This document shows, piece by piece, positions 501-37,106 of a stretch of 64,000 nt of DNA; the stretch's first letter is position 1, and every line of letters begins with the position of its first letter. The notes below the pieces were generated by a model, which was not told the origin of the DNA, did no database searches, and saw only the letters and a list, made by a program, of their open reading frames with translations. Made by a program: the position numbers and the translations under genes. Source of the DNA: Fragilariopsis cylindrus CCMP1102 (taxonomy: Eukaryota > Bacillariophyta > Bacillariophyceae > Bacillariales > Bacillariaceae); NCBI GenBank assembly GCA_900095095.1, contig FMBT01000379.1, forward strand, positions 62,001 through 126,000, read 5' to 3'.

Positions 501-3500
501 TTAATTGCCTACAGGAAAACTGACTACGCGCCCAGTTCCTCTAGGATGTGTGTCACTTAATGCTAGTGTGATACTACCTGTGATCCCTAACCCTAAATAC
601 TTTGTAAATACGGTACTGAATTTGTACCTGAGATCCTCACTTTCGTCAAGAGAAAATAGATTAACGTCGATGTGACTCTTTCCATCCCATACAGTAACTG
701 CACTCCCTCCCGAAAAAATAGCAACGACTACAATACCGTCGCCAATACCATCAGCAAAATGTTGAACGTCTTTTATGAGATCCCATTCCATTTCCGAAAT
801 GGAATGTTCCAAAGCAGTTTTGAGCGCACTGGAAGTTACAGATTTGCTACTGCCAATCTCGAATTGGTAAAGACTTTGACGTCCCAAAGATTTCTGAGCT
901 GCAAGTTGCTCTTTACCTCCCCGAAGATCGTAATCGTCTGGCATGAAAATCTTCGGTCGGAATGGACCAACTTGGGCATATGGTAGACCATCGTAAATAC
1001 TTCCAACCTCCATGATATCAGCTGTGAGAGTATGTTCATTGAAATTCGATATCATCTCGTTTAGATGAAGGAAAAACTTTATGTCGTGTAATGATAGAAC
1101 ACTCATTGTTTGTACAGGGGTGCTGCTGCTTCCTCCTTCTGTCGATCTCTTCTTAATTACTAAGTCGGCAAGACTCATAGGACGGTACGTAATCTTTTCC
1201 CGAATCAAAACAAGAAAGTTTCTACGCCACGCTTTGGAGTGTTCTTCATCTGATGTAGTTGGTACAAGGATAGCAAAACGATGTGATGCAAAAAGTCTTT
1301 TTCTATTCCAGACACTACCAAAAATGCTGAGTAATAATTTCAGCGTAACTTCCTGCGCATTGTTGTCAACGACGAGAAGTGATACCTTATCACTACCCGC
1401 ATCGTTGCTTAAAGTATTTGAGATGACAACCTCGCAGTTAGTCATCTTGGTGGATATATCCTGAGAGAATAGAGCACTAGTCTCTACGATACTTGCACAT
1501 GTCCACAATGGTATGACTTTTTTGATCTTTCCTCCTTTTTTACTTGACTCACGTAACGCATCAAGACTCTTACATGGCTCGCCTTCGGCTCCACAAACTA
1601 CAGCGACAACAACATCATCGTCTAATAAATGTAAACTTTCATTAAGAACACTAGCTTCTGTATCAGTAGCAGCAACATCATCGATGGTTGAAACCGTATC
1701 GTTCTCGTTCTCGTTTTCGTCGTCACAGTTACGACTATGGACGAAACGGGGACCAATTATCTTTCGATCATTTTCCCTCGTCGACGAGCCGTGCATTCCG
1801 CCATCAACGATGCGGAACGACGATGTTGAACCATCGGTACCACCAAGTACATTCACTAAAGCATCCTTTGTATCATCCATAAGTTGAAAGCTACCCCATA
1901 ATTGAATATCTAATGCACAATACGACTTACCCGGCCAACTTCGTGCAATAATATAACCTTCCTCCATAATTATAACAATCGTAGAAAATGTTGTTGTTGA
2001 TGACGATGACGCCGCCGACGCCGACGAAACGGTCGATATAGGTGTCAGACCAACTTTCTTTAGGGTAGAAATGAGTGATTCCTCATCACTCGTTGTCGTT
2101 GTTTTTGTAAGATTTTCTGCTTCTACAATCATTAATATACCAGCCTGTTTACCAACAACATCAGTATCAGAATCATCCTCCATATCACACTGGCCTTGTT
2201 CACGTGCATTATTTTTACGATATTCTGTGAATCTATAAAATGGATTATTATCATGATCCTTTAGAATATCTTCCTGTGATTCGTACACTAATGTATCTAC
2301 ACCATGATCTGTCATGGAACGATTGAAAAAATTAATATTATTGGAACCGATTACCATACCCTGATCACAAATAAATGGTACATCATATTCAAAATATTGC
2401 AATGTATAATCAAAATGTTGACTCATTGTTTCCATATAGTATTCACCATTCTTTAACATAATTCCCTCCGGTTGTAATAATAACGATAGTGTTTGAAAGA
2501 TACTAAGTTTATCAGTCACTTGAAACGACATCACAGTTTCACTTAAATCCACAACGACTAAATCAAAGGAACCAAAATAGGATTTTGGTAACATTAATAA
2601 TGATTTTGCACCATCTCCAAACCACCATTCGCTTTAATATATTTATTGTTATATATGTGTTAAAAAAAATTTTAAAAGTAAACGAGGGAGACAAAAAACA
2701 CACGCAGTCCAATATAAGTGAGATGATCATAGGACAGAACAGAACAAATAACACATCAAACAAACAAACAACACATCAAATCAAATCAAATCAAATCAAA
2801 CAAACGAACAATTAAATCAAAACATAGTACAATATAATATCAAACTTAACGACGAAACGTAACGTACACTCTATTATCATCAAAATGTGGTTGAGTATTA
2901 AAATAACGGAATGAATTTCTTACTACAAATTGATCCAGTTCTAAGCCCACCACAAGTTCAAGGGATGGATCTGAGATACAGTTGAAAGAAAGGAAAAAAA
3001 GGGAAAGACAAAGAAGTCAGATACACGACATATTATGATCAAACAAAATCCTTTATTGTAACTGTCACCTATTACATCATTACTTCCTCCAGCGAGCACC
3101 TAACTGCACGGGCGCTATCGTTTGAAATTTATACGCGCTCTTAAAGCACGCCAAAACCTTAAAATCTTCGCTTATTTTTATTTTTTTTCGTACATAATTC
3201 CAAGCGATAGCGCGACTGCATTTAGCGCTTGCTGGAGGAAGTATTCATACCACCACCACCACCAAACACAAACTGAAAACACTTACATTTTAAGACATCA
3301 TGTAATACCATCGAATCACCACCACCCACAAATAACACACGTTTGACTTGATGTTGTTTTAAAAATCTCGATGGAAAATGAACCGCAAATTCATGATAAT
3401 GTGGTCGATAACTGGTACATTGTTGGACTGTATCATCTAATTTCATACACATATCTTGTGTGATGGGATGTTGAAAGAAAAATATCTCTTGATAATGGGA

Positions 3501-5279
3501 TTGGATACTTATATCTCTACTTTTACTTTTATTATTAGTGCCATCATCATTTGTATCATCACTTGTATCCCAAACACTTTTATAATTTCCCCAATCTTGT
3601 GATACATCTTCATCATTACACATTGCATAAGAGACTTCCGATGGTCCATATGGATTATCTTCATTAAATTCTAACTCTAAATCATATATTGGTTGTCCTA
3701 TGTTATCTCCTTCATATAATGACAGATATCCACCATCCCATATTGGACAACTACTGCCACCGGAACGAGGTTGTTTCAAAATACCACCAGGACAATAATC
3801 TTCCTCATTCTCATTATTCTGACCGTGACTAATATATTTAATAATTTGTTCCATCACAATTGTTAATGCAGTATGATAGTCCCATGCTGTCTCCCATTCA
3901 TATTGTGTCATCATTGTACTATCTGTTGGTACTAGTGATCTGCCTTCAGTAGTACCAGTAATAATAATAGATTTCAATTTCTTTAAATTATATAGTTGTT
4001 GTACAATATAGGGTAATATATCATTTTCCCAATCAATGCTATTTAAAGTAGCTTCTTCTTCGAAGCCACCACCTGGTATACTAATTTCATAAACATCATT
4101 GTCTTCTTCTTTACTACCAACAATCTTCTTTTTATCAATTTGTATCGATAGTATCTCACCATAATGTTCCTCTTCTAGATCAAAATGATATAATTGTGGA
4201 TACTCTTCAATTATACCATAATTACGAAATAATTCTGGTGTACTAAATTTTTTGGTATCAATACTTTCATCCTCGTCATCCTCCTCCTCCTCCTCATCCT
4301 CATCGTCGTCGTCATCCTCATCAATACTATTCTTATTCTTCTTGTCATCGACATCATTATAAGAACGTACAATTTGTTCCTCTTTTTGTATGGTTCGTGA
4401 TGCTCTTAATTCAAATTTTAATCCAAAACTTAATTTACCAACAGTATTGACACTATTACTACTACTACCATGATTATAATAATTATTATCCATAAATGGT
4501 ACCAGTAAACCATATTTTGTTCCATATACTGTCGAGGAGGAAATAATATTGTGTATGATTGCTTGTACTATTGGATCATTATACTTGTGACCGTCTTCTA
4601 AATCCAAGAGACATTGTCCATATTGATCATGATTTAATACTGTAAACAGACCAGTGGGTGGTAATAAACCACCCAGAATAATATCAGTTAATAAATCTTT
4701 TCCTTCTTGAGACCATACTGTGGGTATAATCCTATTCCTATTATTGTTGCTGACATTATTAGTAGTATCGTTGTCACTAATAAGAAGATTTAAATAACGT
4801 AAATATATTGCAAATTCGGAGGTGGATCCTAATTTTGTTTCCTGGAATAAGGCATCAAAAGCAAGACATTCTTTTTTAATTTTTGAATAGTCATCGTCTT
4901 CATCGTCTTCATCGTTATCATCGTTGTCATCATTATTATTATTATTATTGTCATATTGGGAATAACCAATAATGGATTTCCATGGTATTGATAACAGAAT
5001 TTCATCTTTCTCAATAATTTCATTCGCATATATTCCAGTTTTTGTAGTTTTTCCAGTTGTAGTTCCAATTATTCGTCGTTGTTCTTGTTTTGGATTGTAA
5101 TATCCATCATCATTACTACTATTAATCCATTCAATTAAATCATTTGTTGTTGTTTTTGTTGACGTCGATGATGACTCTACTACTACTACTGCTTCCACCG
5201 AATAATCATAGAACGAAGATGACACTAACACCGACACGAAGACAATAAGCAACGCTAATAATGCTTTCATGACTTTCAT
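501..5279 (-). CDS. SET-domain / spermidine-synthase-like / SpeD-like fusion protein
   Basis: Three exons: 5279-3287, 2970-2868 and 2631-501. Phases 1 and 2 match and the total is divisible by three, giving 1408 aa. Introns start GTAAGT and GTACGT and end CAG and AAG. Residues 1-30 are a hydrophobic leader. Residues about 75-360 are a SET domain of the Rubisco-methyltransferase type: IYANEIIEKDEILLSIPW, VPFMDNNYYNHG in place of the NH-P-N motif, and FRNYGIIEEYP. Residues about 595-790 follow spermidine synthase: YHEFAVHFP, VLFVGGGDS, LELVVGLELD, RVEWWFGD, FDLVVVDLSE. The small middle exon supplies the SAM-binding strand and helix. Residues about 860-970 resemble the SpeD AdoMet decarboxylase fold (IIARSWPGKSYCALDI), and the last 110 residues look like a second, weaker copy. 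The acidic run near residue 325 is low complexity. Joining the domains rests on exact splice continuity. The substrate is unknown, and the polyamine role is inferred from the fold only. Confidence 0.8.
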
Positions 5280-6012
5280 ATAGTAACGCTATACTGCTAC
5301 TGCTACTGCTACTACTACTATTGATATTGCTACTATTGCTGTTGCTATTGCTACTACCTAACCAATAGTAATATATCTAAACAGAAATTCGCTTTTGAGT
5401 GTCGTAATTGAAGTTTCACCAGTAGTGCGGAGTGTACTGTTACTGGTGTGTTATTGCATTTTTTTGAAATTCGCTCTCTAATAATGTGCTTGTGCGCTGC
5501 ACGCAAATAGAGTGTTATCAGGATATTTTGTTTTTAACAAGCTATTCTGGATGATTCCTTCGATGAATCTTCAAATTATTATTAAGGCAATGAGAGGGAA
5601 AGGGGGGGGGAGTGTTAAAAAGGGATGGGGTCACTCAATCACTTCTAGGAATACACTAGTAACACTTTGGTGCGTTACACCCCTCAAACAGTTCTTTTGA
5701 ATTTTCGCGCCGGAGATCTATCGAAACCATTGAATAAATCTCCGCGTAGAAGTAGCAGTCATTAATATAAACACTAATTCATGCCCAAATTTTACTAGCA
5801 TTTGTGAGTGTAGTATATAGTAACAACTTTAGCATCAAGTATATACACCTAAAGGGTCATTTTTTTGGAAAAATAAACAATGAAGTTTACAATTGACCTA
5901 TCAGATGGAGAACTGTTATATTCCTTAGTCTTGTAAGCCTACTGGTATCACACAATGTAGGCTCACACACAGCACACATTTTAGGGATTTAAAATGTATG
6001 TGTACACACAAC
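5280..6012. other. intergenic upstream of the SET fusion gene
   Basis: It begins with a degenerate trinucleotide run (CTA/CTG-like, about 5290-5357) directly upstream of the fusion gene and holds a G run near 5604-5612. No gene is supported. The last 100 bases (about 5920-5980) resemble bases near 29900-29950, a hint of an old dispersed repeat. Confidence 0.4.
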
Positions 6013-6750
6013 AAAATATCTCATTTGAAAGTGTTACAGAGGTCGAAACCAGCTGGGTCAGGTGCACTAGCATCCGCATAGTGTATTAGAACATTGTAGT
6101 TGCCTCCTACAACTTTTTTGTTCCTGTGTTTGCTGAATAAAATTCATTTTGCTGTTGTGGAAGGCACACAAACAACAAGATTTTCAATCAAAATGAACAC
6201 AAAATAGCTCATTTGAAAGTGTTGCAGAGGACAACACTGGATGAGTTGGGTTCTCAAACATTGACATTGTGTATTAGAACATTGTGTTTGCCTCCTACAA
6301 CTTTTTTGTTGCTGTGGTTGAAGAATAAAATTCATTTTGCTAATGCTGTAGGCACAAAAATAACAAGATTTTTGATCAAAATGAACCACAAAATATCTCA
6401 TTTGAAAGTGTTGCAGAGGACAACAACAAATAGGTTGGGTGCTCTAACACTGACATTGTGTAGTAGATTAGTGTGTTTGCCTTCTACAACTTTTTTGTTC
6501 CTGTGGTTGAGGAATAGAATTTGTTTTTCTATTGTGGTAGGCCCAAAAAAAAAAGATTTTTGATCAAAATGAACCACAAAATATCTCATTTGAAAGTGTT
6601 GCAGAGGACAACAACAAATAGGTTGGGTGCACAAACATCTACATAGTGTACTAGAAAATTGTGTTTGCCTTCTACAACTTTTTTGTTGCTGTGGTCAAGG
6701 AATAGAATTTGTTTTTCTAATGCTGTAGGCACAAAAAAACAACTAGGTGA
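6013..6750. repeat. tandem satellite, ~188-bp unit, about four copies
   Basis: The word AAAATATCTCATTTGAAAGT (AAAATAGC in one copy) recurs at 6013, 6201, 6390 and 6578, spacings 188, 189 and 188 bases. Each unit also carries TTTGCCT(C/T)CTACAACTTTTTTGTT and, before the next unit, GATCAAAATGAAC. The last unit is incomplete and fades near 6750. Both strands stay open over short stretches, but the shifting frames and shared repeat origin argue against coding. Confidence 0.9.
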
Positions 6751-8828: not shown

Positions 8829-11297
8829 TTACTTTAAACCTAACTTTCTTCTTCGTGATGACGACAATGGAGCAGAAGAAGAAGAGGAACGATGGCGACG
8901 ATCAGAACTGGAATTACTACTTTTACTCTTACTCCTGCTGCTATATCGTCGTCGTCCTTGTTCTTTTCCTTGTTCAGAAGAAGAGGAATGATGACGATTC
9001 CGTGAAGTGGAACTTTTATTTCGTTGGTGGTGCTGTCGTTCTTTAGTAGTACTAGTGGACGATTTTGATGGTGAGTTCTGTTTGTGATATACATAACTAT
9101 CGTCGTCGTCGTAATCGTCGTCAGTAGTATCATCATCCTCATCCTCATCATCAAATAATTCTTCCGGTTGTGGTGTACATGACATATGTTTACGAACAAC
9201 TTCATCTAATTTTGGTACTACTAGTACATTTGACAACAACTTGGTACTGGATGATTTACTCGTACGACGTTGTGCTGCTGCTGCACCGCCATACGCTTCT
9301 TGTACTTGATCAACAATATCACCAACCATAGTTTGTCCACGTTGATATGCATCTTGTGCTGATTCTTTTACATTCTCTTGTAAATTTTCCAATTTCGATG
9401 GTGATAGTGGTAATATATTTTTCCATGGTGACGGAGAAGATTTTTTGTCTTTTTGTAATGTAGAAGAGATCGTATCATCATCGTAGTAAGAATTACGAGT
9501 AGTATCGATGACGGATTCATCGTCATCCCTCCACCGCTCGTGATTATCATGTGGTGGTGGTGGTGTTTGTTTTTGCGGATGTTGTTGTTGTTGTTGTTGT
9601 TGTTGTGGCTTCTTCTTATTTTTTCGACCATCCAAAATATCTGGACCGGAATCGTAATTATTATTATTATATTCAAATGATTGACTATTACTTTGACCAG
9701 GCGGTCCATGACACATCATACACGTAAGTATATCGGGATTCACTTTTCGACTACCACTACCACCACCGAATGATTTACGACTACCTTCTTGATGATTAAT
9801 CATATTATCAACGTGGTCTACATCTATAACATTATTACCAGAAGATACACATAATTTCCACATACCATGTTGTATTTGTTCTAATCCTGCTTTCGTATCA
9901 ATTTTAACTTCCTCATTAATATCTTCTAATTCATCGATTTGTTCCTGTTGATCATCCACCAATCCAGCTAATTCACCATATATTTCATTTACTTTTTTCA
10001 TTGATTGATTAATATTATTTACCTCAACTTGTCGTTCACGCATTGCACGATCAAAAAATTCTTCTTCTAAATTAGATGGAGTACCAGTAGTTTGTTTACC
10101 AGTTGTTAGATAGCTCACTTCTGCACGTTGACGTTGTTCAATGTCCACTATAATAGATTGCAATTGTTCTGATGCGCGATAGTAATCACGTTGCAATTTT
10201 TTCCGTCCTGCCACTGCAAGTCCAGATTCTTCAGTTACTATTCCTTGTTGTTGTTGTTGTTGTTTATCAATAGCAATTTTTAAATCACGATTCGCATCTT
10301 GTGCTGATGTTAATAGTATCCTTGATCTCCACATGTCTTCGGGTGATGTAACGGCAGTATCAGCTTTTGAAACGACATCTAATTCACCGACCATTTTTTG
10401 AAATAATGCAATTTCTGTTGATAATTTACATTTGACGGATTGTTTTGGTTCCTTTGATTTGTTTGATGATTCACGCGGATAATTCTTCTTCGTTTTGTTG
10501 ATACTACTACTTCGATCGCCTTTCACACTACTACTTGAAGGAGGTAATCGATTGCGACGACGATCGTGAGTATTATGAGTACGATCTTTCTGTGACTGTG
10601 GTTGTGATATATTTTTATAGTGGTTAGGTAATCTTCTTCGTTGTTGGTTCTGGTTTTGTTGTTGTTGTTTTGACGGCGGATGTTCTGACTGTCGTCGTCG
10701 TCGCCGTTGTGACTGCCGTTGTTCTATATCTTCTTCTTCTACAGAATTCATTTGATCCAAGCTAGTACTTTTATTAAGTCGAATAGAATAACTTCCATCA
10801 TCATCATCATCATCATCTTTTGACCAACCATCATCATCATAGTCGTAGTCGCCTTCGGTAGATATAGATGTAGTTGAGGCTAATGATGCATCATTGCTAT
10901 TGCTATTTCCAACGTCGTCCATTAATGGTTTTTCAGTGACAGGACATTGTAAATGATTTAATCGTGGTCGTACTCCTCGATGAATATGATGGTCATGCAA
11001 TGGAATTGCTCCCCCGTCACTCCTTCGTCGACAACTCGATGAAGACGATGAAGAGGACGGCGGCCTGCTACTAGTACTCCTATTTCTTACTTCGTCATTA
11101 CCACTACTACTCGTAGTACTTTTTCTTCTAGATTGTGATTGCAATTGTGACGGTACACGGGATGGTGTTGTTAAAGTTGAATCCGAAGAACATCGATGAT
11201 TATTCCTCTTTGTCTGCGTCTGCTGTTGTGATGATACCGTCCCCGTGTTTTTCTTCAATGCCGCTATTGCATGTCGACCAAAATCCGAAAACGACAT
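8829..11297 (-). CDS. Qa-SNARE-like helix in a long disordered protein
   Basis: A single open frame of 822 aa. Residues 1-285 are Ser/Arg/Gln-rich and probably disordered. Residues about 290-410 are predicted helical (LSTEIALFQKMVGELDVVSK onward), like the linker before a syntaxin SNARE motif. Residues about 415-485 match the Qa-SNARE helix: REREV-type heptads, NINQSMKKVNEIYGELAGLV, then DDQQEQIDELEDI with the zero-layer Gln. A syntaxin would have a membrane anchor right after this helix. Here there is none; a disordered tail with DILTCMMCHGPPG, poly-Gln, acidic and Ser/Arg stretches follows. The stop codon lies inside a perfect GTAAGT, so a further 3' exon is possible, but the two candidate downstream exons examined would add only short non-hydrophobic tails. 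Membrane trafficking is inferred from the SNARE motif alone. Confidence 0.7.
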   Translation of the reverse strand: MSFSDFGRHAIAALKKNTGTVSSQQQTQTKRNNHRCSSDSTLTTPSRVPSQLQSQSRRKSTTSSSGNDEVRNRSTSSRPPSSSSSSSSCRRRSDGGAIPLHDHHIHRGVRPRLNHLQCPVTEKPLMDDVGNSNSNDASLASTTSISTEGDYDYDDDGWSKDDDDDDDGSYSIRLNKSTSLDQMNSVEEEDIEQRQSQRRRRRQSEHPPSKQQQQNQNQQRRRLPNHYKNISQPQSQKDRTHNTHDRRRNRLPPSSSSVKGDRSSSINKTKKNYPRESSNKSKEPKQSVKCKLSTEIALFQKMVGELDVVSKADTAVTSPEDMWRSRILLTSAQDANRDLKIAIDKQQQQQQGIVTEESGLAVAGRKKLQRDYYRASEQLQSIIVDIEQRQRAEVSYLTTGKQTTGTPSNLEEEFFDRAMRERQVEVNNINQSMKKVNEIYGELAGLVDDQQEQIDELEDINEEVKIDTKAGLEQIQHGMWKLCVSSGNNVIDVDHVDNMINHQEGSRKSFGGGSGSRKVNPDILTCMMCHGPPGQSNSQSFEYNNNNYDSGPDILDGRKNKKKPQQQQQQQQHPQKQTPPPPHDNHERWRDDDESVIDTTRNSYYDDDTISSTLQKDKKSSPSPWKNILPLSPSKLENLQENVKESAQDAYQRGQTMVGDIVDQVQEAYGGAAAAQRRTSKSSSTKLLSNVLVVPKLDEVVRKHMSCTPQPEELFDDEDEDDDTTDDDYDDDDSYVYHKQNSPSKSSTSTTKERQHHQRNKSSTSRNRHHSSSSEQGKEQGRRRYSSRSKSKSSNSSSDRRHRSSSSSAPLSSSRRRKLGLK

Positions 11298-13074
11298 TCT
11301 ATATATTTCTGATTTTTGGTACAGTATGCACTTCTTGAAAGGAGTGATATCGTATGTTGTACGACTCTCTAATAGTACTTTAGTGCTAGTTACTATTATG
11401 TTCTTTTATTGGATGCCAAACATTGCTGGTATTTTGAAAGTCTTGTCTTACTAGGAGAGTACAGTACTGGACTTGGAGTTGTTTTGTTTGCTTGCGCTTT
11501 GTGAAGAAAAATGTAATCATTCTTAGCCATTTAGTATTGTGGAGTAATTTTTATTTTGTCTGATATATACTGTACAACGGTTTTCCAGTTAACGGTATGT
11601 ATCAATTATATGTTTGTTTTTAAGTCTTCGCCGAACCCAAGCGTTGGATTTGACTCGACTCAGTCGACTAAATTCAAATGTCATGGCTTCATTCGGACTT
11701 CTTTTTGTATGCAACTTAAGACTAGAGTACTAAGTTAGTGTCAATAATTATATATTATATTAAATATTTTGGTGCACCACATATGTACTTCCTATTATGA
11801 TAATTCCCCTTCCCCCCCTTCCAATTACCGGTACTAGTATCACCGAAGAGCCTGAGATAACTTGACTGACTCGGACATCGCCTCCAACCGCACGCACCAA
11901 ATACCAGCCTCTGAACAATTTAACAGAACTATTTACTACTACTGTACGTAACTCTTGATACTACAACCGTGTGTTGTGCGATTACCCGCCTGCTTAAATT
12001 AAGAATAATATTATGATACTAAATATCAAGATTCAATCTAGATTCAATGGCCTTTCTTCGCTTGTTAATTCGACGTAAAAGTAGAGGGCGATGCGAATTA
12101 CGTAATGCATATACGTACTGTATCTTCCGTCTTTTTATCAAACACATCAAAAAGTACATTAGGCCTTTTCATGAAACATACATCATACTACCAGTAGTAG
12201 GACAATTTATCTACCAACATCAAAACGAGAAGTACCCCTTCACGTGACGGAAGCACACACATCTGTTTTTCAACTCAACTCAACTCTCCTCTATCTGTTG
12301 CATCTCTTTTCTTCTGCTCACCTCCGAACTAAGAAGTCGCAAAACTTCCAACTGACACTTCAGTTCTTATATGTACTACGTCGTCGAAGAGACAAAGACA
12401 ACAAGCATTATATAACCAAGACAAAGACAGACAACTTTTGTTTTTCATTACACAATTGAAATTCTAAAGAAGAGAAGGTGAGTAAGTTAATTTAATTTGA
12501 TTTGATTACGTCCGTCGTCTCTAGCAAGCAGAGACACAAACACGTGACGGAGGTGTGTAGGCACACGTGCATTTTCATTTACCTCCCCTTCTCAAAAAGA
12601 AGAATTTACAATCACATATTTTTTTTAACTCTCCTCCTTAGGCATTTTCTTCTGCTCACCTACCGAACTTAGAAGTCGCAAAACTTCCAACTGACACATC
12701 AGATATATTCTCATACGTTTTTTCATTGGAAACGATTGAAATCCAAAGAAAGAGAGAAGGTGTAAGTTAATTTAATTTAATTTGATTTGATTTGATTTAA
12801 TTTGATTGCGTCCCGTCGTCTACAGTAGTGTGCTGCATGTGTTGGTAGTTACAGTACTCCAGTACAAACGATTGTTCGAAAGAGACTCTATACCGTACAG
12901 AGTGGCTTGTACTCGGTACTCGTCTCTCTCTCGTCTCTCGTCTCTCGCTCTGAGCTGTGTGCGTCCTGCACCACTGTCTCACTGGTCTCACTCACTGGTC
13001 TCACTCACTCACTCGGCATCTCACTCTTTCGTCCTTAATAGACCACAAAAAACGAGAGCAGTTGACTTGAAAGA
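11298..13074. promoter_or_regulatory. shared upstream region of SNARE-like and cathepsin genes
   Basis: 1.8 kb between two divergent starts with no supported gene. The half nearer the protease carries a duplicated block (listed separately). CACGTG boxes occur at 12241, 12541 and 12562. A CTCTCGT-rich stretch at about 12915-12950 and CTCACTCACTGGTCTCACT repeats at about 12977-13015 lie just before the protease start and may mark its 5' UTR. Confidence 0.45.
12241..12826. repeat. imperfect tandem duplication upstream of the cathepsin gene
   Basis: Two blocks share, in order, CACGTGACGGA (12241 and 12541), TTCTTCTGCTCACCT (near 12309 and 12648), AGAAGTCGCAAAACTTCCAA (12332 and 12671), AGAGAAGGTG (12471 and 12753) and a TTAATTTAATTTGATTTGAT run ending in GTCGTCT. 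Offsets vary from 282 to 339 bases, so several indels separate the copies. Confidence 0.85.
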
Positions 13075-16000
13075 ATGAACAGTTCGTATTATTATTATTT
13101 CCTCACCGCCGATGATGCAGCAGCCGACGTAAGAAGAAAAAGACACCAACAACAACGACGTTGCTTCACAACATACATCATCTTTGCGTTGGCGTTGTCG
13201 TTGTTGATCCTTCCGGCTACTGCCGTTGCTAGTGCTAGTAACGGCAGGAGTAACACTGCCACCAAAACTTCAATTCCATTCCAGTATTCGGATCAAGATG
13301 TAGAAGAATGTGTTAATGAAATGTCTGCAGGCGAAGACAGCAGCAGCAGCAGCAGCAGCAATAATGCTACGAGGACGTCGTGTACTGAACTTTACGATGA
13401 ATTCAGATTGCATTATCATGGGATTGGTCCTATTATTGTTGATGATGGATCATCATCATCATCTTTGATACAACTTCCATCATCAGGATTAATTCAATTT
13501 AAGAAAACTGTACGATACGTATATGAACAGAATTCATACGACCCAAATGCTGCTAGTCACAGATTACGGTTAAATCAATTTGCTGATAAGTCACAACAAT
13601 CACATTATTTATCAAAACGTGATGATGAAGAAGGAGAAGAAGGTGGACATAGTAATCAAGAACAAGATAATTGGCAAATTGAATTAGAGAAATTTTGGAA
13701 TGAACATGAAGGCGGCGATAATGATGACGAATCATCCAATCATCAACGTAATCGATTATTGCGTTGGGAAGGAACTGATGTTCGTTTATTAGATACACCA
13801 TTAAGTATTGATAGAATAGAAGAACAACGCCAGGAACAACAGCAATTACGACGATCACTTACATGGAATAAAAAGAAAGTGGATTATATTGAACCAGCAT
13901 TATTATCATCAGTATTACGTACCAGAACAACCTCCAATGGTCAACATACAAAAGTTATGATGCCAGGAGATGGATCCACTATACCTGCTGCATTTTCATC
14001 ACCACAAGTACCAACATTTATACATGGTACGGAAGTTGAATTGCATAAAGGTTCCTCGACAGATAGTATTAGTAGTAATGATGTGGAAGACGAAGATATA
14101 TTTGATAAGAAGAACAAAAAGCATCATGAATTTACCAAAAGATTAAACTGGTCCACCAAACATAATCCGGATGGTGTACCATTAGTACATAATGTCTTTG
14201 ATCAAGGTACATGTGGAAGTTGTTGGGCATTTGCAGCCACTGGTAGTGTCGAAGCAAGTGCTGCACGGAATACAGCACGGAATCATTTTGTAAATGGACT
14301 ACAAGAAATATCCGAAAAATTAATAGAACAAGAGAATAATAATGATGACGATGATGATGACGATGATGACGATGATGACGATGATGACGATGATGACGAT
14401 GACGATGATGGTGTGAATGGACGTCATGGTACTGCTGCTGGATACTATACAATGATAGAAGAATTAACAGAAGAATCACGTGAGGTTGAAAAAAATGCAT
14501 TTCAAGAATTAAATTTAAGTATACAAGAATTATTAGAATGTGATACCAAAACGAATGAAGGATGTATTGGTGGCAATCCATTACTTGCTTTTTACTATAT
14601 ACATAAACATGGATTAGTACCATGGACGGAATATCCATATATTGGTTATGGATATAATGAGTATGAATATAATACTAGACAAGAAAGAACAACGATTGGT
14701 ACTACTACTAATACTTCTAATACTTCTACTTCTATTTATACCGAGACAGTAGAAGAGCAGGAAGAACAACAGCAACAACAGCAGAAGCAGTTGTCAACGT
14801 CAACGACAACGTCATCATCTTTACTACTGCCATCAAAACTAGGACCACTGCAGCCACCACCGCAAACGCAACAGGAACAACAACAACAACAAAATGCACC
14901 AGTATGCAAGAAAAAGCAAATACAAAATCCAATAGCAACAGTTGAAAGTTGGGGTTTATTACATAAAAATCATGAAAATTTAATTGAATATGCACTATTA
15001 TATGTTGGTCCAGTCGCTGTTGGTTTTAATGGTGCTGATCCATCATTTATTAATTATGGTAGTGGTATATTTGATTCAGTGGATTGTGATCAAACAGCTA
15101 ATCATGCATTACGTAAGTTACAGCCTACTACAAAATATTATACTATATACTTCTTCCCAACCTCTCTAAATAAATCCGAATGAAATAAGATACCTTTTTT
15201 TACCTCACAAAAACATGATCTCTTTTTCCTTCTTACTTTTTCTTTCTCCTCACGACGCTTACATAACACACACAGTCATCGTCGGATACGATCAAGTGGA
15301 CGTCGTAACAACTAACGAAGAAGAGGATGGCAACAAAATCAATACAACAGAAACGATTAGGTATTGGATTGCACGTAATTCATGGGGTGAAAGTTGGGGT
15401 GAGAATGGGTTTGTTAAAATTAAACGTGGTACGGGTGGGAAGGGTATACCAGGTGTTTGTGGTATTGCACGTAGTCCAAGTGTTGCTCTTGGTGGTGTGT
15501 ATCGTTCTAATCGAATGGAACCATTCATTGTCAGAGATGGAAAAGACGGCGATAATGGATCATCATCATCTGCACGATTCCGGAAAGGCAAATACGGTGA
15601 TTGGAACGATTCTTCTCCTGCAAGTTTACGTATCGGTATGAGCACGAATCATCCAATATGTAATTCGATGTTTACAGGACGTGGTAGTACCCATTTAAAC
15701 AATGGATGTTTTAAATTTGCCAAGTAAGTTTTACCTAAAAAATGAACGAATGCACAACATCACTCCTGTGCATTCGTTCCTATTCTATATTTTTGTATAT
15801 ATTCTATCTCGTCGCTTACTCAACTTCCACTTATATTATTTTGTTCCTTCCACCACAATACAATACAAATACAAAATGCAGTGCTTATGAAAACAACCAA
15901 GCCGTATTCTTCGCATTCATTTGTATGGCAGGTGCATTAATTGTTATAATTCCATTAACAATATCCATTTTTCGTCAACATCGTACAGCAAGAGGTGCGG

Positions 16001-19180: not shown

Positions 19181-21006
19181 TTAGACAATATTTTTGAAGC
19201 TCGTTGTGTCTGATTGTTTTGTTGTTGCTGATGACGACGATGACGATGACGGCGACGACGTAGTAGTACTATTAGTAGCAGTTTGTTGCATCTCTACAAC
19301 AGATTTATTGCTGTTGTCAGGAGACGACGATACAGATGATGATGATTTATCATTATTATTATTATCAGTAACACCAGTATCAGATTGTTTATCACCCTGA
19401 CCAAAACAATAATTAATATATAATCCAAGAACACTCACAGAACCAAAAACAACATAAATTAATCCAGCATAATTTATTCCAAAATTTATATATAATGCTG
19501 TTGCAATTGCTGGTGAAAATCCACCTGCAATAGCATGACTGATAATGGACGGGAAATAAACGAAAACAAACAAAAAGAGTGTGAGGAGTTACACAATAAG
19601 TGGGTGTGTTTGGTGTGCTTGTATGATCGATCGATTTATTTAATTTGATTCAATATTTTCATAAACATATGCATTATATATAAAAAATACAATACTGCAC
19701 AATGATATTATACGTACCTAATATCATATCCAATAGAGGCTGATGTCATTCGAACTTCTGGACTAAAATTTTCAACAAGCCAGGCACATAATGGACCACC
19801 ATAGAAACTTAATAATAATCCAAGTAGTAATTGTGATAAGAATGCAGTGACAGGATTGCCTTTACTTATTACAATTAAACATACTGGACCTAATCCAGTT
19901 AATAGTATACCACTCACTGTCATCATACCAATTCTACTACCAATTCGATCTGAGATATGACCAGCAATTGGTAATACGAATGTCATACCTAATAATAATG
20001 ACATGGAATTAATCCAAAATGCATTTTGGATTGGTGGATCCATTAATTCTTCCATATATAGTGCAATCCATACAAATGAGACATAAAATCCGGAGGCCCA
20101 TAGCATGGGTGTGATACTTGTACTTAACAATGCTAGTCGATTCTCACGACGGAATGCCACCTTAATTGGATTATGTGGTTTCGTATGGATACGTGAATCT
20201 TCTTGTTGTTGTTGTTGTTGTTGTCCTTGTTGAGCTTGTGGAACATTAATATCACTAACATCAGTACCATATTTACGTAAATAACAGGATACGACTGCAA
20301 TTAATATACCAGAAAAAAATGGTATTCGCCATCCCCATGTGACTAATTGTTGTTCCGTTAATATAGATCTCATTGTGGCACCACATATATTACCTAATAA
20401 TGTACCAACATTGGCTGCCACCATTGGTAAACTACCATAATATCCCCATTGTGATTTTGGACGTTTTTCAACAGTATATACGAGTGATGCTGGTAACTGA
20501 CCGCCAACACTTATACCTTGTATTAATCGACATAGACATAATAAAATGGTGGACAGTACACCAACTTGTTTATAGGTTGGTAAGCAACCCATTAATGTGG
20601 TTGGTATTGCCATTAAAAATAAACTTTTGGTCAACGCTTCCTTTCTACCATGCTTATCACCAATATAACCAATAATTAATCCACCAATTGGACGCATTAA
20701 AAATGCGGAACCAAATATCACAAAACTTTTCATTAAATTAGCATCGCTACCTGAACTACCTGCAGGTACTGGTGGAAAAAATACTTCCGCAATCACATCT
20801 GAAAAAAAACCAAATAATGCAAAATCATACCATTCTAATACATTTCCCATAACACCAACAATTGTATTAATTAATGATTCACCACCACCTAGATTTTGTT
20901 GAGATAGATCAGCTATTCCCACTACGGCGGTGATTGTTGATGATGTAGCTGTATCGTCATCATCGCGACCACCACTGGTGGTCTCAGTTTGAGATACATC
21001 CGTCAT
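19181..21006 (-). CDS. MFS symporter, MHS/ProP-like
   Basis: Two exons, 21006-19718 and 19538-19181 (intron GTACGT...CAG, 179 bp), 548 aa. The frame joins exactly to restore IGYDISHAIAGGFSP. Twelve hydrophobic spans are apparent. GNVLEWYDFALFGFFSDVIA at the start of TM1, the loop 2-3 motif GYIGDKHGRK, RLIQGISVGGQ in TM4 and the TM5 GLxx-type region are those of the metabolite:H+ symporter branch, which includes proline/betaine and dicarboxylate carriers. A Gln-rich insert lies in the central loop, and a Ser/Asn-rich cytosolic tail follows TM12. The substrate cannot be read from sequence. Confidence 0.88.
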
Positions 21007-21751
21007 ATTTTACTTTAGTAGTGCAGTAGTACTGTAAACGCTTGGATTTGTTTTGTTTGAAAAAAAGTTCTCTTTCGCTCTGATCTCCTATTATAATGCT
21101 GATGCCTTGAGATACTTCCTGCAGTCGATCAACTATACCTATCTACTAGTAGCAAGAGAAAACGACAAACAAGGAGTTTAATGATAATGAACTGTGGTAG
21201 GTGACAACGTTGCGTTTAGTATTGTATTTGCTGTCTTACATCGGAGTTGTTGCTTTTTTTGATAGGTAATATTATGTGCATGATGTGCGCGCGCCTGTGC
21301 CGCAAGCAATGATATCTTCGCGTCATTCATTATTCATGTGAAATAATATCATTGGGTTTTTGAAAGATCTACTGTACAGGGCCTTCCATTAGTTTTAACA
21401 AACACTGAGTTAGCTCCAAAAGGCAGTCGCGTAAAATTATATGAAAGAGCGAAAAGAACAATCATTATTGTGCGTGGCGAAATGCTTTACTGCCTGTAAC
21501 TCCTAATAAAGATCGCCCGTACTGTGCTGTTCGGGTTGCTGCACATAATATATATTTTGTACGTCATTGGAGCATAAACATCATCATCACATACTGGTAC
21601 ATCTTCTATCATCTGATCTAATATCTTGCTCATTGCAGCAGCGACGAATCGAAGTGCGGGGGATATAGGGGCAAAAATTTTCTCGTTCCTAAACAACCAG
21701 CTTGGTTTGATCCTTTGTATTTTTATTTTTAACTATATATAGTATAATAAT
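21007..21751. promoter_or_regulatory. divergent upstream region, MFS and 7TM genes
   Basis: 745 bp between head-to-head starts. A TATATATAG element lies about 15 bases before the plus-strand ATG, close enough that it may sit in the 5' UTR. No gene is supported. Confidence 0.4.
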
Positions 21752-33160: not shown

Positions 33161-34415
33161 TGTTTTTAGTTTTGTTTTGTTTTCTATCTGTTACACGATT
33201 TTACGTCAGCGGGTAAACGGTGGAAAAGGAAGACAGAAATAGATTAAGAAGAAGCAAGAAAGCCTTCAGAAAAAAACGAAGTAGGGAAAGGAATGCGAGT
33301 AGCTACGAATTTAGCGTTTGACGTGATACATCGGTAGCATGCGAACGACGTCTTGATCGACTGTTGATGGAGTTGTCTTACCAGTAGTAAATCTATCTTT
33401 CTGTCGTACTGAAGTCTGCCGTGTTATTGACATCCCTGCCATTCGCCGTAGACCTACTGGTATGTTTAGTTATTTTGTATTTCATCACATTTCCAATCAC
33501 ATGTTCTGTCTGTCTGTCTGTCTGTCTGTCAAATTCATCACGTGACATTCATCGATGATTCGATTCATTCGATTCATTCGAACCTGATTTTTTTCAATTA
33601 CATCATGTCTGTCTGTCTGTCAACTTCATTCACTTCCTGCCTGCTGCACACCAGCCATTCAATGACGAGCGAAGAATGAAAAAAGAATGTCCTTCAAATG
33701 TATATGCCCTTTTTTGTACGCACATGAAGGCAATGATAGACAAACATTTAACACAATTTTTACTGTTTCAATAAAAGAATTTTCTTTTCGTACATACGCT
33801 CCACAAACATTATTTAATCTAATATAAATCGCTTTTTATGGTTATTTAGTAACATGAAAATCTTACTCATCGATACAACGCTTCAAAGATGAAAAAGAAC
33901 ACAATACTAAATCTACTACACTCCTTGTAACTTTATATTTTACAAACGCGAACATGAATATAGTATCACCACGGAGCACCGCTAATAACGAAAACAATAG
34001 TATTATACTATTGGGAAAATTCTTTATTGACATGAAAGCCAAAATTTGACACACGTGCTTTGTATTATCCTACAACAACTATGCTAAAAATGAATGGCGA
34101 CAGAAGAACAGTACAGTACTATTGTTCGTTTCAACTGTCAGTGGTCAAAGGTCTTGACATGCATACTTCATATTTCAAATATTCTTAAAGGATCTGATTC
34201 ATTATTTGGTTTGTGTTCTGAGCAACAAAGAAAAGCATAATATATATCCATATGAAAGGAAAATAGAATAGAATAATCAAAAGGAGAGGAAGGTTCGGTA
34301 CTGCGTACAATAATCTCACAATCACTGTCAGTACCCCAATAGCAATAGCAATAGCAATAGCAATAGCAACTGCACCACCACCAACAACAGCTATCTTATC
34401 TAACATCGATTAATC
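33161..34415. promoter_or_regulatory. divergent upstream region with microsatellites
   Basis: 1.25 kb between divergent starts. Contains (CTGT)n at 33504-33530, with a second short copy near 33607-33622, GATTCATTC direct repeats near 33560-33580, and (AGCAAT)n at about 34339-34370 just before the downstream ATG. No gene is supported. Confidence 0.45.
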
Positions 34416-37106
34416 ATGCCAAGGTTTAAGGTCTTCATTAAGAAGCCCTCGAGCAACAGAGAAACTGTTGCTACTACCACCGCTGGCAATACGCTGGACA
34501 AGGACAACTATAAATACAACGACGATGGCGGCAATGAGGATGCCTTAGCTTTACTTGCCGATGCTACTGATAAAAATAACAGTGCCGATAATAATAATAA
34601 TAATAATAATAATGACAATGACAATGACAATGACAATGCTTCAACAAAAAGTAGACGTGAACGAAATAGTGGAAGAAGTAGAAGAAAGAAGAGAAAGATG
34701 AAGAGGAGGACATATCGTGATTTACTCGTACTGCCATCATTATCAGAATCTGAACTGAATGATACCAGTAGAAGGATAATGATAAAGAATAATGATAGTA
34801 ATATTAATGATCAAGTAAAAGAAGAAAGGAAGATAATTATTAGTCAACAAGAAATGATAGCAGCGCTGATGCAGCAGCAACAGCAACAACAGCAACAGCA
34901 ACATCATGATTCTTCATCACAGTCACAGTCATCATCATGTTGTGCTGCTTCTACTGAGGATGATGATGGATCAGTTGAATGGATTACTCAAATTGAATAT
35001 CAACCTCATAGTAAGAGAAATAGTCATCATCTAGACCGAACATTACCATCAGTAATAGAGGAGAACAACAGTAAGGTAGTTTACGGTATTGATAGTGTTG
35101 ATGATGATTATGATGACGATGATGATGATATGGAGAGTGCATTTTCTATAGCTCAAGCACATCAATATTATGATAAGAAGTATTCCAGTCCTACGAAGTC
35201 ATCATTATCGCCGCCGTATAATGATAATGATGATGATAATGATGATGACAGTGATGATGTTGGATCATTAGAAGCCACAACAGTATCAACATCAACAACA
35301 GTTATATCACTTGACTCTATTATACCACAGAATTTATCATTAGCATCATCAAACCCCCTCCCCCCTCCACCCCCATTATCTCACGATGATGACAGCAACA
35401 ACGATAAACAACAATTACATCAACAGCAGCAGCAACAACTTGCAACACAAAGTAATCATTCTCAATCTATGGTAGGTGTTCTAGTTAAGAGTTTCGTTAG
35501 AACTTTTTGGAAATGCAGTACTTGTCGGGATGATAAAGACAATAATAAGATTAACAATACCAATAACCACGACAACCAGCTAACCCATGACCATGACCAG
35601 CAGCCGCACAACAATGACAATGACAATGGCAATGGCAATGGCAATGGCAATGGCAATGGCAATGGCAATGACAACGACGATAACGATAACGATAATGATA
35701 ACGACGATAACGATAACGATGTTGGTATTGATTTTAGTATCAGTATTGACGACTACGACTACGACGACGAGTCAGATAATATGTTCAACAACAATAGCAG
35801 CATTGCTGATGATGATAAATCTCAGTACGATGAGGATGTGGCGAATGAAGGTAATAATGAGGAGGAAGAAGAAAGTAGGAAGAAAAAGACGCCAAGGAAA
35901 TTTGCTTTCGATGATAATGAAACAGTAACAGTAGCATCTACGGTAGATGATACAACGCATATTATTGATGCTGACAAAGGTGACGACGATGACGCAGGCG
36001 AAGGTAAAGGCAACGATATTCATATAGGTGTATCATATTCATTCCAATTACTACCATCACCATCGATGATATCCATTGCCGGGACTGAAAAAACAAGTAC
36101 TGAAAAACTACAAAAGTTTCTTCAAAAACAGAATCAGAATCAAAAGACTAAACATCAACAATTACAAGAACAACATAGTCAACATACTGCCAGGGGTTCA
36201 TTATCATATACACACAGTACAAGGAATAACGGCATGTGTGATAATTATCATCCAGAAACAGCAATAACAACAATATTGGCATCATCAAAAGCAGCAAACA
36301 CAGAAACATCAACGGCAGCACCAACCGCAATAGATATAACGACAGCTGCAGCAACAGCTACACCAACAGCAACAATATCAGAAGCAGTAGCAACGAAAAT
36401 CCTTATTGGAAAGTCTATACCTACTGAACTGGTAGGAGCAAGCGGCGCTCATCACCGTCATCAAGATTCTTACTCAACTACCACAACAGCAAGTGCATGT
36501 ACAAGTGACGAATCATCATCACCGCCTTGGGCTGACCCTATGACGGTAGTATCATCGGCTGATACAGCATCGAAAAAAGTAAAGATCACAATCACTCGAA
36601 ATATCTACAACCGATTAAACAAAATCAATACCGCATCAACAGTACAATCATTAAAAAATTCTAATGGATTTAGAACTCGATCATTTTCTCCTTTTGGGAA
36701 GATATTCCATAACGTCAACAATAGTACCAAACTCGACAACAAGGACGACGGGGACGGAAGTGACAAACGTAGGAAGAAACAAGACCCACCTTCCGTGGTA
36801 GATGGCAATAATCGTCGCATTCAAAGTGACAAGTCCAAGAAGAAACAAGAACCACTTTCCGTGGTGGAAACTAATGACAAGCACAAGAACAAAGTAGAAC
36901 CATCCTCCGTGGTGGAAGACAAAATTATTCATCATCATCATCATATTCAACATTGGAAGCGTAGATTGGTTTGCTGTACAACCAGTACCAGTGCCATTGG
37001 TGTTGCAGGTTGCTCGACCCCATTACCACCAGCACCATCATTGGACAATCTTTCTCCTATGGCACGACTTCGTCATTATCCTAAGGAAATAAATTTAACC
37101 GAATGA
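34416..37106 (+). CDS. large disordered Asn/Asp-rich protein, 896 aa
   Basis: One uninterrupted frame from ATG. Basic clusters (RRERNSGRSRRKKRKMKRR, residues 78-97) may act as nuclear localisation signals and are followed by TYRDLLVLPSLSESEL. Long Asp, Asn, Gln and Ser runs fill most of the protein, including an Asn-Gly run from a GGCAAT hexamer repeat (about 35624-35667). Near the C-terminus (about 36760-36920) three degenerate ~20-residue repeats carry KKQDPPSVVDG, KKQEPLSVVET and NKVEPSSVVED. A short ordered end reads DNLSPMARLRHYPKEINL. No enzymatic domain was seen. Function unknown. Confidence 0.6.
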   Translation: MPRFKVFIKKPSSNRETVATTTAGNTLDKDNYKYNDDGGNEDALALLADATDKNNSADNNNNNNNNDNDNDNDNASTKSRRERNSGRSRRKKRKMKRRTYRDLLVLPSLSESELNDTSRRIMIKNNDSNINDQVKEERKIIISQQEMIAALMQQQQQQQQQQHHDSSSQSQSSSCCAASTEDDDGSVEWITQIEYQPHSKRNSHHLDRTLPSVIEENNSKVVYGIDSVDDDYDDDDDDMESAFSIAQAHQYYDKKYSSPTKSSLSPPYNDNDDDNDDDSDDVGSLEATTVSTSTTVISLDSIIPQNLSLASSNPLPPPPPLSHDDDSNNDKQQLHQQQQQQLATQSNHSQSMVGVLVKSFVRTFWKCSTCRDDKDNNKINNTNNHDNQLTHDHDQQPHNNDNDNGNGNGNGNGNGNGNDNDDNDNDNDNDDNDNDVGIDFSISIDDYDYDDESDNMFNNNSSIADDDKSQYDEDVANEGNNEEEEESRKKKTPRKFAFDDNETVTVASTVDDTTHIIDADKGDDDDAGEGKGNDIHIGVSYSFQLLPSPSMISIAGTEKTSTEKLQKFLQKQNQNQKTKHQQLQEQHSQHTARGSLSYTHSTRNNGMCDNYHPETAITTILASSKAANTETSTAAPTAIDITTAAATATPTATISEAVATKILIGKSIPTELVGASGAHHRHQDSYSTTTTASACTSDESSSPPWADPMTVVSSADTASKKVKITITRNIYNRLNKINTASTVQSLKNSNGFRTRSFSPFGKIFHNVNNSTKLDNKDDGDGSDKRRKKQDPPSVVDGNNRRIQSDKSKKKQEPLSVVETNDKHKNKVEPSSVVEDKIIHHHHHIQHWKRRLVCCTTSTSAIGVAGCSTPLPPAPSLDNLSPMARLRHYPKEINLTE

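Follow-up and report, generated by a model that had tools for sequence, protein, structure and literature searches.

A diatom gene joining a SET domain, an aminopropyltransferase-like domain and a SpeD-like module with replaced catalytic residues

The window analysed here, a 64,000-nucleotide stretch of Fragilariopsis cylindrus CCMP1102 (contig FMBT01000379.1, positions 62,001 to 126,000), carries on its minus strand a gene that, judged from its sequence and its paralogues, almost certainly encodes one protein of 1408 aa in which a SET domain, an aminopropyltransferase-like (APT) domain and a SpeD-like module follow each other. The residues of the APT module favour an aminopropyltransferase that would use decarboxylated S-adenosylmethionine (SAM) and a non-standard acceptor, and the SpeD-like module, of the S-adenosylmethionine decarboxylase (AdoMetDC) type, is predicted to be dead. 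The fusion type itself is not new. Diatom AdoMetDC-APT-methyltransferase fusions and their link to silica polyamines have been in print since 2011, and what is added here is a residue-level analysis that sharpens what to test.

Gene structure and domain architecture

The gene runs from an ATG at 5279 to a TAA ending at 501, with 4227 coding bases and a single terminal stop (Table 1), and the coordinates, strand and length proposed in an earlier sequence-only reading of this DNA were correct. Within the ranges searched, 72 GT-AG combinations, the chosen one among them, stay open for more than 1350 aa, so that the openness of the frame alone does not fix the junctions. These are settled by homology. 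In paralogue C253a (locus L050) both junctions are free of introns and the sequence there, EVLKYPSLE and DDRVEWWFGD, agrees with that of the spliced window protein; in addition, the draft models of two other paralogues, C500 and C307, have an intron at the intron-2 site (RV|.WW.GD). The splice continuity that the sequence-only reading had invoked to link the modules is thus borne out. Furthermore, both introns fall inside the APT domain, hence separate SET and APT genes fail to explain the exons. Indeed, a single open frame of 1202 aa in C253a covers the latter part of SET, the APT domain and the SpeD-like region, which makes the fusion independent of splice prediction.

Table 1. Exons, introns and protein modules of the gene, in window coordinates
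Feature	Coordinates	Strand	Residues (aa)	Remarks
Exon 1	3287..5279	-	1-664 and first base of codon 665	1993 nt; leader, SET, linker, start of APT
Intron 1	2971..3286	-		316 nt; GTAAGT...CTCAG; holds an insertion resembling a miniature inverted-repeat transposable element (MITE)
Exon 2	2868..2970	-		103 nt; nucleotide-binding core of APT
Intron 2	2632..2867	-		236 nt; GTACGT...TAAAG; position common to draft models of C500 and C307
Exon 3	501..2631	-		2131 nt including TAA; remaining APT, SpeD-like module, Cys-containing middle region, C-terminal module
N-terminal hydrophobic leader, signal-peptide-like	5214..5279	-	~1-22	
SET domain	4200..5036	-	~82-360	NH 269-270, SYN 306-308, NYG 353-355
APT-like domain	2205..3527	-	~585-841	interrupted by both introns
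SpeD-like module	1770..2189	-	~847-986	catalytic residues replaced
Middle region	1134..1793	-	~979-1198	cysteines 1045, 1052, 1077, 1098
C-terminal conserved module	516..1106	-	~1208-1404	GDG, WDG and PRG motifs; relation to SpeD unsupported

A domain search of the spliced product, one of the checks proposed beforehand, placed PF01564 (Spermine_synth; E 6.6e-17, 62.1 bits against a cut-off of 22.9, aa 627-766) and PF00856 (SET; E 3.2e-5, 24.7 bits against 22.4, aa 82-308) above their Pfam cut-offs, while PF02675 (AdoMet_dc; E 0.0065, 17.2 bits) fell below its cut-off of 25 and was still below it on exon 3 alone (E 5.8e-4, 20.6 bits). The NCBIfam SpeD model reached E 0.0023 on exon 3, far under its cut-off. 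From the list of modules first proposed, the leader, the SET domain and the APT domain stand, and the plural SpeD-like modules come down to a single, weakly supported one.

The four cysteines of the middle region are invariant in all seven aligned members of the gene family described below. No credible solved relative of this region was found with a profile against PDB (best E 0.59), and hmmsearch with a profile of the C-terminal module gave no solved relative up to E 5. Single-sequence searches of solved structures returned weak spermidine-synthase matches for exon 1 (best E 0.011) and nothing at E 1 for exon 3. Two further ideas, that the C-terminal module is a second SpeD-like module (probability 1.2 and 0.2 in profile comparison with the first) and that the APT-SpeD unit is internally duplicated (probability 0.1), were dropped as unsupported, not disproved.

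Two repeats were observed close to these features. The MITE-like element of intron 1 (window 3076-3248) has long inverted repeats with arms of 22 and 30 nt, and a 184-base query from it gave at least 82 genome matches including itself. Upstream of the gene, at window 6011-6742, lies a 188-bp tandem repeat of ~3.9 copies.

A family of eight members in the genome

The genome (67.9 Mb, 818 contigs) gave 26 exon-level matches to Spermine_synth, 11 to AdoMet_dc (E up to 1) and 98 to SET (E up to 0.01), these being counts of matches, apparent alleles included, and not of genes. From 32 genome matches to the window protein, seven paralogues were assigned, two on C253 (C253a and C253b) and the others on C767, C500, C531, C307 and C587; the remaining matches belong to APT or SET genes that are less closely related. 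Together with the window gene (C351) they form a family of eight, which splits from the other eight rows of a 16-row APT tree with a support of 100/100, the C531 row being a draft that lacks the glycine loop and the L065 row being only 33% filled. A Pfam SET match lies beside the APT domain in four of the seven paralogues (C253a, C253b, C500, C531), C307 and C587 display only SET-like stretches unlisted by Pfam, and the upstream part of C767 reads N. Within the 1202-aa frame of C253a, both SET (21.8 bits) and AdoMet_dc (20.7 bits) are under the Pfam cut-offs.

A second class of fusion, with the order SpeD-APT-SET and an intact SpeD motif, is present in the same genome, as shown for L057 (G000:C265:743000-748500). 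L058 and L059 display an intact-motif SpeD followed by APT and, beyond that, an NH-type motif only; one L058 frame, other than the one with this motif, had no Pfam match. It was also observed that L050 and L051 (G000:C253:145500-158500) are two family members in tandem on the same strand.

The evidence for a kept fusion comes from paralogues of the one genome, and relatives outside it were sought in viral, prokaryote and phage collections. The viral and prokaryote scans, by which a restriction to diatoms was tested, used two peptide patterns each, drawn from five members; 17 stretches on viral contigs and 15 on prokaryote contigs fitted a pattern and none was confirmed, and the phages searched with the C253a frame gave one remote speE match covering 11% of the query.

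Retained and replaced residues of the three modules

A search of solved structures with a five-member APT profile retrieved, at E 0.001, 25 different aminopropyltransferase sequences, with a best E of 5.8e-17. The APT residues were read by alignment to the same genome's own spermidine synthase and their roles were taken from PMC6514230 and PMC3725402. In the window member, GGGD, ELD, GD and VVD are present and the ribose Glu, the adenine Asp and the catalytic Asp are retained. The gate Asp of GGGD is kept in seven of the eight members (C351, C253a, C253b, C767, C307, C587 and C531, where it lies in a second reading frame) and is missing in C500. In Datura spermidine synthase, a mutant with Ile in place of the gate Asp no longer transferred aminopropyl groups and showed a slight methyl transfer (PMC3725402); given this mutant, the retained gate Asp favours aminopropyl chemistry. 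The putrescine site of the window member is altered, with Glu at the second acceptor Asp and Ile at the Tyr of PTYPSG, which favours an acceptor other than putrescine. Its YHE Tyr is retained (C587 has VHE instead), and the residue preceding the E of this motif is His, where Gln is usual in spermidine synthase and where His has been reported for thermospermine synthase (PMC6514230). As a separate observation, the frame of L055 (G000:C531) is broken near locus position 3300, at a run of T within the glycine loop of the APT domain, by an assembly error or a real lesion.

AdoMetDC depends on a His and a Cys as well as on its pyruvoyl-forming serine, found in the ESH motif. That an internal serine of the enzyme forms the pyruvoyl cofactor is described in PMC10407285. 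At the position of the ESH serine all eight family members have Gly, seven by alignment and the eighth (C253b) by the same EG, while the serine is intact in four control SpeD domains of the same genome. Moreover, where the controls have His, six of seven rows have Arg and the other has Leu, and where they have Cys, all seven have Trp. An eight-member profile against PDB chains still placed SpeD structures in the lead, the best at only E 0.032. Since the module is predicted to be dead, the protein would not be expected to produce decarboxylated SAM for itself. An AdoMetDC-derived domain without function and yet needed for dimer formation has a precedent (PMC12803844).

The NH and Tyr motifs of SET domains are catalytic. 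They are intact, as NH and SYN, in five of the seven readable members (C351, C253a, C253b, C500, C531), altered in C307 (QH, SHSN) and C587 (PR for NH), whose drafts are uncertain around SET, and unreadable in C767. Against solved structures, a four-member SET profile gave SETD3 at E 0.02 and Rubisco methyltransferase at E 0.75, and a single-sequence search with the L057 SET exon found no solved structure at E 0.5. After the SET domain, the SETD3 and Rubisco large-subunit methyltransferase class is expected to carry a Rubisco-type substrate-binding domain; Pfam showed none here, whether the 1408-aa protein was searched at E 0.01 or exon 1 at E 1. The protein-lysine methylation proposed in the sequence-only reading is not established, the nearest, though weak, solved relative of this SET domain being an actin-histidine methyltransferase.

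N-terminal leader and host

The window protein begins with a stretch whose best 15-aa Kyte-Doolittle mean is 3.01, at residue 6, against 2.22 or less past residue 110. All six members with a modelled N-terminus have a strongly hydrophobic segment close to it (15-aa mean 2.6 to 3.2), the models of C253b and C767 being without starts; this segment begins at residue 6 to 14 in four of them, at 35 in C587 and at 68 in C307, two models whose start codon may be wrong. These features fit a predicted signal peptide or anchor and, together with the conserved cysteines, the leader would be compatible with an oxidising compartment.

Silicon transporters serve as a marker of diatoms, and the genome has 27 exon matches to this family (best E 1.1e-226), by which the host is diatom-like; a silicifying host had been supposed from the start, and these matches agree with it. 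Haptophytes have silicon transporters as well (PMC4742977).

Proposed mechanism and alternatives

From the gene structure, the eight-member family and its kept and lost motifs, we infer an activity, an acceptor, a compartment and a role in silica as follows. With decarboxylated SAM as donor, the APT module would add aminopropyl groups to an amine acceptor of an unusual kind; the donor would come from other enzymes, for instance from the SpeD-APT fusions of this genome whose SpeD motifs are intact. The SET domain would methylate amines, either on the same substrate or on one close by, and the SpeD-like module, predicted to be dead, may aid folding or pairing, like the AdoMetDC-derived domain of animal spermine synthase. 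The likeliest substrates would be long-chain polyamines of the silica matrix, lysine-bound or else free. We put this mechanism forward tentatively, its chances as a whole being somewhat short of even; its silica role is a published and plausible hypothesis. It predicts a dead SpeD, an APT module preferring decarboxylated SAM and a non-putrescine acceptor, all of which can be tested, and paralogues left with a single motif set could separate the SET and APT functions.

In a narrower form, the family would hold a protein-lysine aminopropyltransferase with a built-in methyltransferase that grows polyamine chains straight onto lysines of secreted silica proteins within the secretory pathway, fed with decarboxylated SAM from the sister fusions. 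We think this unlikely as it stands; if true, it would add a new class to the protein-modification enzymes, though the general idea was anticipated by a title of 2011.

Several observations weigh against the proposed mechanism. The link of the SET domain to solved enzymes is weak, as its profile E value indicates, a single-sequence search with the C253b SET exon found no solved structure at E 0.5, and the window member has two additional residues right before NH compared with three aligned paralogues. C767 retains Tyr at the acceptor place, and the altered site is thus not family-wide. Two single-sequence structure predictions were poor, with a mean pLDDT of 35.2 and 33.1. Moreover, SAM and decarboxylated SAM must enter the secretory lumen, and we know of no route for them. 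Lastly, C500 kept the SET motifs and lost the APT motif, and C307 and C587 kept GGGD and lost the SET motifs, which speaks against an obligatory coupling of SET and APT of the kind envisaged in the sequence-only reading.

Free small polyamines could instead be the sole substrate, lengthened by the APT module and N-methylated by the SET domain with no protein-bound step. The solved relatives of the APT module are indeed polyamine synthases, a bacterial SET enzyme, BurB, methylates methionine (PMC12542666), and reviews describe the diatom fusions as making and N-methylating polyamines (PMC3820600, PMC12029483). However, the acceptor site of the window member is unlike that of spermidine synthase and the nearest, if weak, solved relatives of its SET domain modify proteins, and we regard this possibility as somewhat unlikely.

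As a further possibility, the APT-like module may methylate with SAM, as the C-terminal domain of METTL13 does, which would make the protein a double methyltransferase. METTL13 has two methyltransferase domains, one of which is distantly related to spermidine synthase (PMC6109062), and plant putrescine methyltransferases are thought to derive from spermidine synthase (PMC3725402). The gate Asp retained here speaks, by the Datura mutant (PMC3725402), against a pure methyltransferase, and we hold this explanation to be improbable.

The loss of motifs raises the question of a largely non-catalytic scaffold or binding protein with decayed domains, as the SpeD serine is replaced in 8/8 members, SET motifs are altered in 2/7 and an APT motif in 1/8, and the window member has long acidic low-complexity runs. 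Against such decay, SET and APT motifs are both intact in the window member and its 41% identity to C253a over aa 592-1404 indicates sustained constraint, which leaves a scaffold improbable as well. A false join of two adjacent genes or an assembly artefact is hardly credible: the introns were inferred rather than RNA-sequenced and intron 1 holds a repeat-family insertion, but the same order recurs in paralogues on other contigs, once with partial SET and APT in a single frame, and the APT domain itself crosses both introns.

Other features of the window

Elsewhere in the window, an open frame at 13066-15180 has a papain-family protease domain and another at 19711-21009 a sugar-transporter (MFS) domain. 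Eight of the ten long open frames tested (413-900 aa), for instance 8832-11405 (-) and 34404-37103 (+), had no Pfam match at E 0.001.

Comparison with known systems

The title of Michael 2011 includes the words 'synthesize, N-methylate and transfer', and its abstract reportedly also covers other arrangements in which AdoMetDC is catalytically dead. In PMC3820600 and PMC12029483, diatom AdoMetDC-APT fusions, some of them with a histone-methyltransferase domain, are credited to Michael 2011 and may make and methylate long-chain polyamines; PMC6356823 describes diatom AdoMetDC-APT fusions without the methyltransferase. There are 32 APT-containing fusion proteins in Nitzschia inconspicua (PMC12803844) and three SAMDC-APT fusion genes in Phaeodactylum (PMC10968388), and a synthase-decarboxylase fusion was upregulated in Entomoneis under aluminium (PMC12533330). 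In Skeletonema, 12 SET-domain genes were inhibited by salinity, with Nemoto 2020 cited (PMC11554505). The transcriptome of a silicifying haptophyte had no homologues of the modified diatom genes, according to PMC4742977. No experimental test of a SET-APT fusion was found in the literature searched, outside which most subscription papers lie, and both PMC12803844 and PMC6356823 state that the diatom fusions are still in need of study.

The fusions of Michael 2011 resemble the window gene in having the same three domain types, the AdoMetDC-derived one being putative in the window protein, in one diatom protein, several per genome, as far as the papers citing them describe it, and the window gene differs by its SET-APT-SpeD-like order and its predicted dead SpeD. 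Within the genome, Pfam, NCBIfam and motif evidence gives L057 the same set of domain types, but in the reverse order and with an intact SpeD motif (ESH...FHTWP...FTCG), and its SET domain has no real BLAST similarity to that of C253b (E 1.7), which stood in for the window SET in this comparison.

Compared with spermidine synthase, the window APT shares the cofactor-site residues and the catalytic Asp and differs by the acceptor Asp replaced by Glu, the replaced PTYPSG loop and the fusion to SET and further modules. The SETD3 and Rubisco large-subunit methyltransferase class shares the NH and Tyr motifs and provides the best, though weak, solved relatives, whereas the window protein has no Pfam Rubisco-type substrate-binding domain. 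The diatom-specific SET methyltransferases of Nemoto 2020 are a parallel, being SET proteins for which wall-formation proteins and long-chain polyamines have been suggested as targets (PMC11554505 and PMC11151724). In animal spermine synthase, too, an APT domain is joined to a domain derived from AdoMetDC that has no decarboxylase function (PMC12803844); its AdoMetDC part comes before the APT domain, whereas the putative AdoMetDC-derived module of the window protein comes after it and a SET domain is added.

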